Assembly (NCBI GenBank): GCA_012960415.1
Contig: DUBH01000019.1
Location: 52,959-102,709, forward strand
DNA: 49,751 nucleotides
Reading direction: 5' to 3'
From: Henriciella sp.
Lineage (GTDB): Bacteria > Pseudomonadota > Alphaproteobacteria > Caulobacterales > Hyphomonadaceae
A model generated the notes under the pieces. The model saw nothing but the letters and a program-made list of their open reading frames with translations, was not told where the DNA came from and did no database searches. The position numbers and the translations under genes are program-made. This document shows positions 16,424 through 20,705 of this stretch, one piece after another; position 1 is the stretch's first letter; every line of letters starts with the position of its first letter.

Positions 16424-16453
16424 CGCCCTCTGATTGCTCGGAGGGTGTTTTTT
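16424..16453 (+). terminator. Terminator after aspS, probably bidirectional
   Basis: CGCCCTC (16424-16430) pairs with GAGGGTG (16441-16447), with one G-T pair, and is followed by seven T residues. On the other strand the same hairpin is followed by CTTTT, so it could also end the pentapeptide gene whose stop codon (16452-16454) lies right beside it. Confidence 0.8.
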
Positions 16454-17231
16454 ATTGACCGGCTGTCTGGATCAGACCGCCGCGCAGCTCTTCGGTTCCT
16501 GGAAGCCGGACGGCCTGACAGGATAGAAGCGCAATGCCAGCTGGTACGTTGGTATTCTCGCCAGCGCAGCTGCCTTCGAAGATAGTGCTCTCAAGGCCCG
16601 TCGCGCCCTCAAAGCTGACATTGATCAGCCGGATGTTGGTCAGTCGCGCGCCATGCAGGTCTGCATTTGCGAAAGAGGTGCCGTTCAGGATCGCGTTGTT
16701 GAACTGGGCCTCGCGCAGGATGGCGCCGTCAAAGATTGCGCCGGTCAGATTGGCGCCGGAGAAATCTGTTCCTGACGCGCGCGCGCGCGAAAAATCTGTC
16801 CCCGTCGCGTTCGCCACGCCAAGGCGTGCGCCCGTGAGATGTGTGTCTGAAAGTGAGGCGCCTGAGAGGTTCACATTGAGCAGGCTGGCCCGCTCAAAGC
16901 GTGAGCCTTCGAAACGGGTGTTGGACAGTCTGGAGCCATCAAGCGTTGCACGGCGGAAATCAGTGCCCTTCGCCATCGCGTCCGAAAGGTCGATATTCAG
17001 GGCGCGCGTTCCGCGCAGGAAAGCGCCCGACACGTTGGCCTTGGGATAGTGCGCGGCAGAGATATCTCCGCCGGACATGTTACGTCCGCGAAGGTCGCAG
17101 CTTACGCATGAGCCACCATAGGAGGGGGCCCAAGAGACGCGCGTCGACTTTGACTGCGCGTTTGCCGCGCCGGACGCGACCCCGCAAGCAGCAAGTGCCA
17201 GAATGACAGACAAGCGACTAAATCTAAGCAT
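16452..17231 (-). CDS. Exported pentapeptide-repeat protein (first of two)
   Basis: 259 residues. A signal peptide (about 1-25, ending SGAANA before Gln) exports it. From about residue 47 to 225 it is built of A(D/N)LXX-type pentapeptide repeats, for example NMSGGDISAA, TRFEGSRFERASLLNVNLSG and TDFSGANLTGAIFDGAIL. These predict a right-handed quadrilateral beta-helix. Cysteine pairs flank the repeats: GGSCVSCDLRG (near 41-44) before them, and SCAGEN...PAGIALLSC (about 223-239) after them. The cap with PAG between cysteines is shared with the next gene. Function is unknown; the exported site argues against the gyrase-protection role of Qnr-like proteins. Confidence 0.88.
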   Translation of the reverse strand: MLRFSRLSVILALAACGVASGAANAQSKSTRVSWAPSYGGSCVSCDLRGRNMSGGDISAAHYPKANVSGAFLRGTRALNIDLSDAMAKGTDFRRATLDGSRLSNTRFEGSRFERASLLNVNLSGASLSDTHLTGARLGVANATGTDFSRARASGTDFSGANLTGAIFDGAILREAQFNNAILNGTSFANADLHGARLTNIRLINVSFEGATGLESTIFEGSCAGENTNVPAGIALLSCQAVRLPGTEELRGGLIQTAGQ

Positions 17232-17312: not shown

Positions 17313-17801
17313 CTAGCCGCACCTTGGGATCGTCAGCCCGGCAGGCAGGCGGGTCGCCTGATCACCGCATGCCTGGCGCAATTGTGCTTGCGTCAGACCT
17401 TTGGCGAGGCGGAAGTCTGCGCCGGAAAGATTCGCGCCAGCAAGGCTGGCGCCCGCGAAGTTTGAAGACCCGAAATAGCCACCGACCAGCGTTGCGCTTT
17501 CAAGGTTCGCATTCGAGAAATTCGAGGCGTTGAACCGCACGCCGAACATGTTGGTGACCGAAAGGTTGGTGCCGCGCAAATTCCAGTTGTCGAAAGTGGA
17601 CAGCTGCATGTCGCTCTGGCGAAGGCGTGCACCTGAGACGTTGATGTTGGCGATATCGAGATAGGCAAGATCTGCCTGGAAGAGGTTGCATCCGGGGCAG
17701 GATTGGCCGTTGCGCACCTTGGTGATTTCGCTGGCGTCCTGCGCCGTTGAAGGCAAGGTGAGGGCGGCAAACGCGAAAGCGGTCAGGAAATGTTTCAGCA
17801 T
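17313..17801 (-). CDS. Exported pentapeptide-repeat protein (second of two)
   Basis: 162 residues with a signal peptide (about 1-20, LTLPSTAQ). Then comes QSCPGCNLFQADLAYLDIAN, the same Cys-X2-Cys-(D/N)L entry motif as its neighbour. About 15-20 pentapeptides follow (for example NASNFSNANLESATL and NFAGASLAGANLSGADF). It ends QACGDQATRLPAGLTIPRCG, again a Cys...PAG...Cys cap. It is shorter than the first copy but has the same plan, so the pair probably arose by duplication. Both are on the minus strand, 81 bases apart, downstream of the TSCPD gene. Function is unknown. Confidence 0.87.
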   Translation of the reverse strand: MLKHFLTAFAFAALTLPSTAQDASEITKVRNGQSCPGCNLFQADLAYLDIANINVSGARLRQSDMQLSTFDNWNLRGTNLSVTNMFGVRFNASNFSNANLESATLVGGYFGSSNFAGASLAGANLSGADFRLAKGLTQAQLRQACGDQATRLPAGLTIPRCG

Positions 17802-17869: not shown

Positions 17870-20149
17870 TTAGTTGAATCCGGATTCAGAGCGTGTCGGT
17901 TCATTACATGTTGCGCAATGGGCCACACGCTCGTCGCCGGTCGCCATCAGCGTGAAGCTTGAACAGTTCGGGCACGGGTCGCCCAGATAGTCTTCTTCAT
18001 CCTCATCCTCCTCGCTGGCGGACGCAGATGCCGCTTCGTCGCGTTCGGCGCGCTTGCGATCCAGAATGACGATATTATCTGGCAGCTGACCGCGAGAGAA
18101 GCCGCGCGAAATGAACTGGACCGCCTCATCGGGAAGCGGTTGCGGCCCTTCGCGGGTGCCATCCTTGAGGCCGCGGCCAAGGCCATCATGACTGACATCT
18201 TCGCCAAGTTCAGCAAGGTCATCACGGCGCAGATAGGAGATGGCCAGCTCCCGGAAGATATAGTCGAGGATCGAGGTTGCCTTGGTGATACGATCATTGC
18301 CTGTCACTTCACCTGCCGGCTCGAACCGGGTGAACACGAACGCGTCGACATATTCATCCAACGGCACGCCATATTGCAGACCGAGAGACACGGCGATCGC
18401 GAAATTGTTCATCAGCGACCGGAAGGCAGCGCCTTCCTTATGCATGTCGATGAAGATCTCACCCAGTGCTCCGTCGGCGAATTCGCCAGTGTGAAGGTAG
18501 ACCTTGTGGCCCCCAACGGTTGATTTCTGGATATAGCCCTTGCGGCGGTCTGGCAGTCTCGTGCGGCGGGCTGGCTTGCCGGTCGCGTCGAGCCCATCCG
18601 GGCTGAAGCCCGCCTGCGTCATCGCCCGGGCTTCTTCGGCGTGAAGGTCCTCAGCAAGCTCCATGATCGCGTTCATACGGTCCGATGCTGCGCCGTCTTC
18701 AATACGGTCGCGGGCGCGCAGATAAAGCGCAATGCCAGCCTCAAGGGCGGCTGCGCGGTCGTCATGCTCGTCCCAATCGCTCGCATCGACGCAAACAAGA
18801 GCGCCGCTTGCGGCGAGCGGCACGGCCACAGCAAATTCGAAAGCGCGGGGAACAGGCAGTGTGATGCCATGCTTGAGCAGTACTTCGCGCGCAATCGTTT
18901 CCGAGGCCGCACCCACGGCCGCATCTGCGGCGGCGATCTCGTCATCGGAAAAGCCGATCATCCCTAGAAGGGGGCGCCCATCTGTATCAAAGCTTTCAGG
19001 CGCAAGCTTGAGACGCGAAGCAATGACATCGTCGCCCAGAACCCAGCGAGAGAAGGCCGCGCCTAGTGGCAGGCCTTCCTTCAGCGCATTACGCACGCGG
19101 ATGATCGCTTCGCCTGAGAAACCGCGGGCCTTCAGCGCGTCGCTATCAATGCCGTCCAGCCTGTCGAGGTCACAGCCTGCATCAAGGGCGCTGCGCAATT
19201 CGTCTGCGGCTTCAGGCGACAGGCGCAGCAGCGCCGTGATGGCGGCGGGCGAAGGACTTGCGCCTGCCTCCTCTGCCGCCTGGACGAGCGCAATTTCGCC
19301 CGACAGGCCGCCGCTTGTGGGCGCAAATTCTGTTTCATCGCTGGCCCGCAGAGGCATGGCAGCGAGGCGCAGGCCACTGACAGGTTTAAAGTCGTCTACG
19401 TTCGCACCAAGCAGCGTTGCTGTTTCAGCAGAAAGCTTCCAGCCAGATACAAGGCAGGCGAGCGCCTCACAGAGCGCGCGGCCTTTCTCGACGAATGAAG
19501 CGTCGTCCGTTGCGCCAAGCGCGAGCGCGCCCGCCGCAACGCCGTGCAGGATGACCATCACAGCTTCATCCGGCACAAGCTTTGGAAGCGAGGCCAGCGT
19601 GTCATGCAGCAGGCTGGCTTCCAGGCCTTGCTCTGAGATGAAGGCTGAAACGTCCAACGCGCAGGCGGGCATGTCGCCAGAGGGGACAGTGCCTGGCCAG
19701 ACACTGAGGCTGATACCTTCGTCGAGGGCGTGATCTGCGAGGGTGGGGACATCCAGATACTGCGACGCCTCAAGACCAACGGGCAGCTGCTCGTTGGTCG
19801 CCATGGCGCTGCTTCTCAGCCAGCGCTCTAGGCCCAGGAAACCATCAGGGTGGGTGATGCCCGCTTCGATCATTTGCGCGGGCAGCCCCGCGTTCAGCGC
19901 TTCGGCGAGCTCTGCATTCTTCGGGGCAACACCCAGCTGTTCGACCAGATCGGCGAGACCCAGCCGTGCTTCCTTTTCTAACCGGTCGCTCGTGCGCGAA
20001 TCCATCGCCTCGCGAAGCGCAGCCGTTCCGTCTGCGGCAAAACGCCTTTGCGGCAGCAGAACGAGCGTCTCTAGCGGCAGGACCGGACTGACGCGTCCTG
20101 ACTGCATTGCATCACGGAAGACCTTGTCTGCATGCTGCTGTCGGCTCAT
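17870..20149 (-). CDS. TSCPD-domain protein derived from class II ribonucleotide reductase, no catalytic barrel
   Basis: 759 residues. Residues about 538-648 match the C-terminal TSCPD domain of vitamin-B12-dependent NrdJ very closely ([58 protein letters not shown]). The tail has a zinc-ribbon pattern with Cys726, Cys729, Cys745 and Cys748, like the NrdJ tail. Upstream, [20 protein letters not shown] (about 365-385) and [11 protein letters not shown] (about 405-415) look like degenerate versions of the linker before the NrdJ TSCPD domain. I find no B12-binding or active-site cysteine region. The N-terminal 300 residues are acidic and alanine-rich and not recognised. Best read as an NrdJ paralogue that lost catalysis; a regulatory role is inference. 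Confidence 0.8.
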
Positions 20150-20315: not shown

Positions 20316-20705
20316 ATGCTCAAACTCTTCACTTGGTGGAATGGCGTCACGCTAGGCGGCCTCTTCGATATCAAACGCCGTAGCGATTACGTCGGCACCG
20401 ATGATTACGGCAACAAGTACTATGAGGACCGCAAGGTCTCCATCGAACGCCGCAACCGTCGCTATGTCGTCTATAAGGGCCTCGCAGAGCCGTCCAAAGT
20501 GCCTGCGGAGTGGCATGGCTGGCTTCACCACACGCTGGATGAGCCACCAACCAAGACGCCGCTCAATCGCCGCGCATGGGAAACCGACCACAAGCCAAAC
20601 ATGACAGGCACGCTGTTTGCCTACCGCCCGAAGGGTGCGCTCAGCGAAGGCGGAAACCGCCGCAAGTCTGATGCTGATTATGAGGCTTGGACCCCAGATG
20701 CGTGA
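20316..20705 (+). CDS. NADH:ubiquinone oxidoreductase subunit NDUFA12 family
   Basis: 129 residues matching the B17.2/NDUFA12 accessory subunit of complex I, which in bacteria occurs mainly in alphaproteobacteria. Typical segments are FTWWNGVTLGGLFDIKRRSD, YVGTDDYGNKYYEDRK, RRYVVYKGLAEPSKVPAEWH, and GWLHHTLDEPP, with the PNMTGT segment near the end. It binds at the peripheral arm near the quinone site. It overlaps the next gene by eight bases and starts the NDUFA12-MCE-DUF2155 run. Divergent from the TSCPD gene across 166 bases, in which I could not identify a convincing promoter. Confidence 0.95.
   Translation: MLKLFTWWNGVTLGGLFDIKRRSDYVGTDDYGNKYYEDRKVSIERRNRRYVVYKGLAEPSKVPAEWHGWLHHTLDEPPTKTPLNRRAWETDHKPNMTGTLFAYRPKGALSEGGNRRKSDADYEAWTPDA

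Follow-up and report, generated by a model that had tools for sequence, protein, structure and literature searches.

What should one make of a gene whose final residues are nearly those of NrdJ, the B12-dependent class II ribonucleotide reductase (RNR) that makes DNA precursors, when the part that would carry out the catalysis cannot be picked out by eye? Such a gene occupies positions 17870..20149 of the minus strand in the 49,751-nucleotide stretch of Henriciella sp. DNA analysed here (the window; positions 52,959 to 102,709 of contig DUBH01000019.1, assembly GCA_012960415.1). The original prediction described a paralogue of NrdJ that had kept only the accessory end, attached to a region of unknown fold, and had taken on a new role. 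Here, we argue that the gene is almost certainly a decayed, non-catalytic nrdJ, and that nrdJ quite likely decayed in place into a pseudo-reductase (the pseudo-RNR) whose non-catalytic, TSCPD-based scaffold was kept by selection.

The open reading frame (ORF) runs uninterrupted for 759 amino acids and is a real, intact gene; no promoter-like sites were found, and the two terminator-like sites are fewer than the shuffle mean. Judged by homology over its length, the protein is NrdJ-derived, as had been proposed. Its TSCPD domain (residues 526-645; 18215..18574, minus strand, as are all parts of the gene) is nearly identical to that of NrdJ and matches PF12637 over residues 542-636 with 38.9 bits against a gathering cut-off of 22.8. 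The zinc ribbon (17906..17974) follows, with Cys726, Cys729, Cys745, and Cys748 exactly where they had been predicted and invariant in all rows of a 26-row alignment. Upstream of the TSCPD domain lies a degraded NrdJ linker (residues 301-525; 18575..19249), whose predicted resemblance is real: residues 301-412 match NrdJ of R. sphaeroides at E 0.014, and in profile comparison the match to NrdJ begins at residue 312.

The barrel is indeed unrecognisable if one has only the single sequence. For residues 1-480 (18710..20149), the AlphaFold2 model has ten-residue pLDDT means of 70-96, mostly 84-96, and of the 50 Protein Data Bank (PDB) entries that VIA-align gives for this model, 49 are RNRs and one is a glycyl-radical enzyme. 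Profile comparison connects the same residues to the RNR barrel by way of homologues from Maricaulis and Caulobacteraceae; in the control for this chain, reversing the profiles on both sides left the scores almost as high as before, as it should. Together, the predicted model and the profile chain indicate a decayed, shrunken RNR barrel, the fold that one looks for in a class II NrdJ (NF005736). This region thus has a predicted fold, and far more than the accessory end was kept, for the whole of NrdJ appears to have decayed colinearly. The score of the whole protein against NF005736 is 296 bits, far under the curated cut-off of 1737, while a full NrdJ (L159) reaches 1921.6 bits. We also observed a YebC/TACO1 N-terminal-like motif (PF20772) in alphaproteobacterial NrdJ (residues 345-413 of L081, E 5.6e-7, below the curated cut-off), a weak one in L042 of Maricaulis (E 0.001), and, at about 19859-19927, an aligned trace of it in the window protein.

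For the active site, we take the roles and positions of the redox cysteines and of the N-x-C-x-E radical motif to be those familiar from the RNR literature. We aligned 22 NrdJ with 38 barrel-less proteins, a hand-picked part of 156 collected ORFs. All 22 NrdJ have both redox cysteines of the active site, and all have N, C, and E at their places in the radical loop. In the 38 barrel-less rows, which include the window protein (L001), the same columns hold gaps or other residues, the alignment of these columns being unsure in Hyphomonadaceae; two rows have a C at the radical column, without the N and the E. The catalytic columns are lost in 38/38, which bears out the predicted absence of the radical-site cysteines. 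In the window protein, the missing finger loop that carries N-x-C-x-E and the radical cysteine would fall at about residues 150-166 (19652..19702, with the exact boundary estimated from the alignments).

Including Henriciella sp., 96 of 101 genomes carry a homologue, either decayed or full NrdJ. By open-frame length, and counted by hand, 84 of the 101 have the barrel-less form (in four of five families), 12 have NrdJ, and five have neither. All 61 genomes of family f1 are barrel-less (G029 as a 323-aa fragment only), as are all ten of f3; f2 has eight barrel-less and two without a homologue, f4 has five barrel-less, two NrdJ, and three without, and in f5 all ten carry true NrdJ. That 84 genomes share this form, as judged from ORF length, rules out a fusion or sequencing artefact, including a fused fragment of a normal nrdJ. 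None of the decayed-form matches in the 101 genomes has an internal stop, the one flagged (G032) being the terminal stop. Among complete ORFs with distinct C-termini, counted stop to stop, the 58 with six-cysteine tails measure 1196-1350 aa and the 79 with four-cysteine tails 749-1061 aa, and the two ranges do not overlap.

Some records need care. We excluded L049 (2-2119) from the 38 aligned rows and from the set of 81 distinct C-termini discussed below: its contig-cut start, the first 219 residues, shares 91% identity with a Paracoccus barrel, its contig is labelled Brevundimonas, and since a Paracoccus-like NrdJ barrel piece is joined to a four-cysteine tail, it is probably a chimeric MAG contig. 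L048, L057, and L068 are contig-cut with unreadable tails, and L180 has 100 N inside the TSCPD domain. Beyond these genomes, 185 of 289 in a class-wide draw gave a match and, among the matches listed, most ORFs have the 1170-1370 aa of full NrdJ by length; the short ORFs outside the order, also among the matches listed, include G356 (918 aa) and G358 (1059 aa). Two short frames from another alphaproteobacterial family, G148:C4:44923-45567 (282 aa) and G379:C8:49483-50124 (289 aa), show similarity to the TSCPD and zinc region alone and are possibly NrdJb-like split genes. A scan of viral contigs gave 35 loci, most of them similar to the C-terminal part, and none of the 16 records from a plasmid search reached 80% query coverage.

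The neighbourhood bears on whether the gene is a copy of nrdJ or nrdJ itself. Downstream and co-oriented are two genes for pentapeptide-repeat proteins with signal-peptide-like starts, judged by eye (17313..17801 and, in the same block, 16452..17231, both on the minus strand); upstream lies a divergent NDUFA12 gene (20316..20705, plus strand), a synteny marker common to true nrdJ loci, and past it are biotin carboxylase (accC) with a further gene at its side, type II dehydroquinase, and thiG. The two pentapeptide genes have homologues in 46/60 and 45/60 comparison regions and NDUFA12 in 48/60. In the 18 true-NrdJ regions, where some of the tabulated marker positions are shadow ORFs, as in the decayed regions, pentapeptide genes occur in ten, downstream as they are here, NDUFA12 in eight, and both in five (L045, L159, L160, L162, and L165); regions without any marker gene number 5/18 for true NrdJ and 2/43 for the decayed form (L183 and L189). 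Since the decayed gene occupies the block that holds true nrdJ in relatives, nrdJ itself seems to have decayed in place, and by synteny the gene is the nrdJ orthologue at its ancestral locus. A paralogue of true NrdJ is ruled out, as a search of the genome at E<=1 turned up no full NrdJ. In a tree of the TSCPD domain, all 38 barrel-less rows cluster (98/93 support) with eight NrdJ from the same groups or neighbouring ones; the tree needs three label changes and does not reject one clade for the barrel-less form (p-AU 0.373), so one origin of the decay and several are both compatible with it.

Why, then, was such a gene kept? Among the 38 barrel-less proteins, mean pairwise identity is 85% in the TSCPD domain, 22% in residues 1-300, and 27% in the linker, against 82%, 67%, and 57% among the 22 NrdJ; the zinc-ribbon stretch (720-752) is less well kept, at 42% versus 76%. 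The same residue is found at a level of at least 95% in both classes in 69 of 120 TSCPD columns. Across seven species pairs, dN/dS is 0-0.025 in the TSCPD domain and 0.065-0.42 in residues 1-300, with several dS values near saturation. Constraint on the TSCPD domain is extreme, and the protein is conserved, as had been proposed. The gene has lost its active site, yet most of the sampled families in the order of Caulobacter retain it with one end hardly altered, so it probably does a different job than ribonucleotide reduction; with active-site residues lost while TSCPD stayed constrained, the new, non-reductase role that had been predicted is very probable.

We picture the history as follows. 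An ancestor within the order probably had RNRs of both class I and class II, and ribonucleotide reduction would have been left to class I. The NrdJ barrel would then have shed its catalytic segments and shrunk, while the C-terminal TSCPD domain and a structural zinc ribbon would have stayed under very strong selection. Since active NrdJ needs the matching region to oligomerise, the product may, by analogy, be a non-catalytic scaffold whose TSCPD domain forms oligomers or binds some conserved partner. Long class II C-termini are described in the accessible part of PMC9669993 as an IscU-like domain plus a zinc finger, the former with no reported role and with a dimerisation that may explain higher oligomers; that of PMC9531940 has no mention of TSCPD. 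For our C-terminal model, the best Foldseek hit in the PDB (E 0.31) is not a confident one. A domain used for docking alone should have co-varied with so changed a barrel, and TSCPD did not, which suggests that it associates with itself or with an external partner. The most economical reading is that selection keeps TSCPD as a module for oligomerisation or partner binding, and a TSCPD scaffold function of some kind is likely. Nothing that we observed points to the DNA binding that had also been suggested. Full-length homology, the loss of active-site and redox cysteines, the shared locus, intact ORFs, and the TSCPD constraint are the observations on which we build.

The foremost alternative is a special case of the scaffold, in which the dead barrel or its TSCPD domain joins NrdA as a regulatory subunit and tunes NrdAB, perhaps through dNTP-dependent assembly; we regard it as unlikely, at something like one chance in a handful. 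It would suit the RNR complement of Henriciella sp., where we found no other relative of the 759-aa protein, no full NrdJ, and no class II N-terminal domain (PF08471) at E<=1, and no NrdD at E<=0.001. A single ORF of 647 aa, which we take to be NrdA, accounts for the only barrel match, and there is one NrdB-type ORF; class I NrdAB is, judged from these ORFs, the only RNR found in the genome. More widely, a PF02867 reductase is present in 93/93 good-quality genomes, its assignment to class I coming from a two-piece match and open-frame length rather than genome by genome. The accessible text of PMC5704485 adds that in NrdJd of S. nassauensis the C-terminal domain is needed for the higher oligomers induced by dATP and dGTP. 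On the other hand, the only NrdA- and NrdB-type ORFs are on contig C83 and the window is on C19, so the gene has no nrd neighbour, as had been noticed from the window; and the five of 101 genomes that lack the pseudo-RNR still have a PF02867 reductase.

The upstream regions also speak against such a regulator. With a general NrdR-box consensus and near-copies counted among the decayed genes, an NrdR-like box with at most two mismatches precedes 14/58 true nrdJ and 0/89 decayed genes (Fisher p 8e-7). Only 1/11 true nrdJ of the same order has the box, so its loss is not attributable to the decay. An NrdR-box-like palindrome (two mismatches to the same consensus) lies just upstream of Henriciella sp. 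nrdA, at about 2882-2897 of L002. A broader proposal, that the TSCPD domain of class II RNRs has a second function independent of ribonucleotide reduction and that a pseudo-RNR of Caulobacterales and relatives, probably including Caulobacter crescentus, is kept for it alone as a dNTP- or cell-cycle-linked regulator of class I DNA-precursor supply, we hold to be speculative and similarly doubtful.

An IscU-like TSCPD domain freed for cluster or persulfide traffic, that is, an Fe-S or sulfur-transfer protein, is improbable. There is no cysteine in residues 526-690, so the cluster-ligand cysteines of IscU/SufU are missing.

Could the C-terminal domain instead re-reduce another reductase, as a donor of the NrdJb kind? 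In P. aeruginosa, NrdJb is a separate C-terminal domain that mediates dithiol exchange (PMC4520616, accessible text), and a further PF02867 reductase of 582-828 aa (E 8e-118 or better) was observed in 10/101 genomes, with a weaker one in G060. One of these (L148, among L148-L151) is of the NrdJ_Z type with its own six-cysteine tail; the decayed protein is also kept in nine of the ten genomes. The tail argues strongly the other way. Of the six cysteines of an NrdJ tail, C1, C2, C4, and C5 are kept in 38/38 barrel-less rows and C3 and C6, the redox pair, in 0/38; the window protein likewise keeps four. All 81 distinct barrel-less C-termini collected have lost the redox pair and kept the four zinc-assigned cysteines, and the six-cysteine pattern is missing from all 82 distinct four-cysteine C-termini. 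For S. nassauensis NrdJd, the accessible text of PMC5704485 proposes the four retained positions as zinc ligands (zinc content was lower in three of four ligand mutants) and C3/C6 (Cys933/Cys945) as the electron shuttle, and reports that all six cysteines were required for activity with TCEP. No class II barrel partner was found in Henriciella sp. either, and we treat the electron donor as ruled out by the lost redox pair, a very slim chance aside.

A vestigial gene in slow, functionless decay might explain the fast divergence of residues 1-300 and the linker and the absence from five genomes; dN/dS values below one half even in residues 1-300, the far lower ones in the TSCPD domain, and the lack of internal stops in the decayed-form matches from the 101 genomes make it slightly less credible still. 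An active reductase with relocated catalytic residues would fit the predicted barrel, and we give it almost no credence, given a score far under the NrdJ cut-off and no invariant or nearly invariant cysteine in residues 1-525 across 26 rows.

The preferred reading, a decayed nrdJ kept for a TSCPD scaffold, reaches into Caulobacter. In the genus of G073, taken as Caulobacter, 40/41 genomes have a homologue, and none of the open frames, some of which are truncated by contig ends, exceeds 977 aa; in this set, G125 has two TGA within its match. The Caulobacter vibrioides control genome gave a TSCPD match, for which the score relative to the cut-off is not stated, and none to PF08471, which full NrdJ matches at E 7.5e-38 to 1.1e-43. 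Presuming that C. crescentus belongs to C. vibrioides, we infer from the genus and this control genome, rather than from its own sequence, that CCNA_01966 is barrel-less. With the barrel-less form in 84/101 genomes and four of five families, the name NrdJ is probably a misannotation and the protein probably not a B12-dependent reductase. This runs contrary to the accessible text of PMC6538847, where CCNA_01966 is given as NrdJ in the nucleotide-reduction pathway; in that of PMC5869019, a table in the section on RNAs co-purifying with GsrN names it "vitamin B12-dependent ribonucleotide reductase". For these families, such a label would wrongly predict B12-dependent DNA synthesis. With barrel chemistry and redox pair lost and TSCPD nearly invariant, the family separates the job of TSCPD from ribonucleotide reduction and makes its function a testable question in the laboratory model Caulobacter crescentus.

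Dead reductases have a precedent in some herpesviruses, whose catalytically dead homologues of the RNR large subunit are RNR-derived and reused for another role; those are viral, class I derived, and of unrelated history. For bacteria, we found no description of a dead class II RNR in titles and abstracts among the matches listed, a scope in which subscription journals are mostly not included. P. aeruginosa NrdJb consists of only the C-terminal domain and works with NrdJa (PMC4520616, accessible text), whereas the pseudo-RNR has a dead barrel attached, has lost the redox pair, and has no NrdJa-like ORF that we could find. S. nassauensis NrdJd shares the four proposed zinc cysteines with the pseudo-RNR, which lacks the counterparts of Cys933 and Cys945. 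The closest relative is alphaproteobacterial NrdJ (NF005736/PRK07562; R. sphaeroides 7b9p/7b9q): the locus, domain order, predicted barrel, linker, zinc-type cysteines, and near-identical TSCPD domain are alike, but the pseudo-RNR is shorter, scores far lower on the NrdJ model, and is without the finger loop, the catalytic cysteines, and the redox pair.
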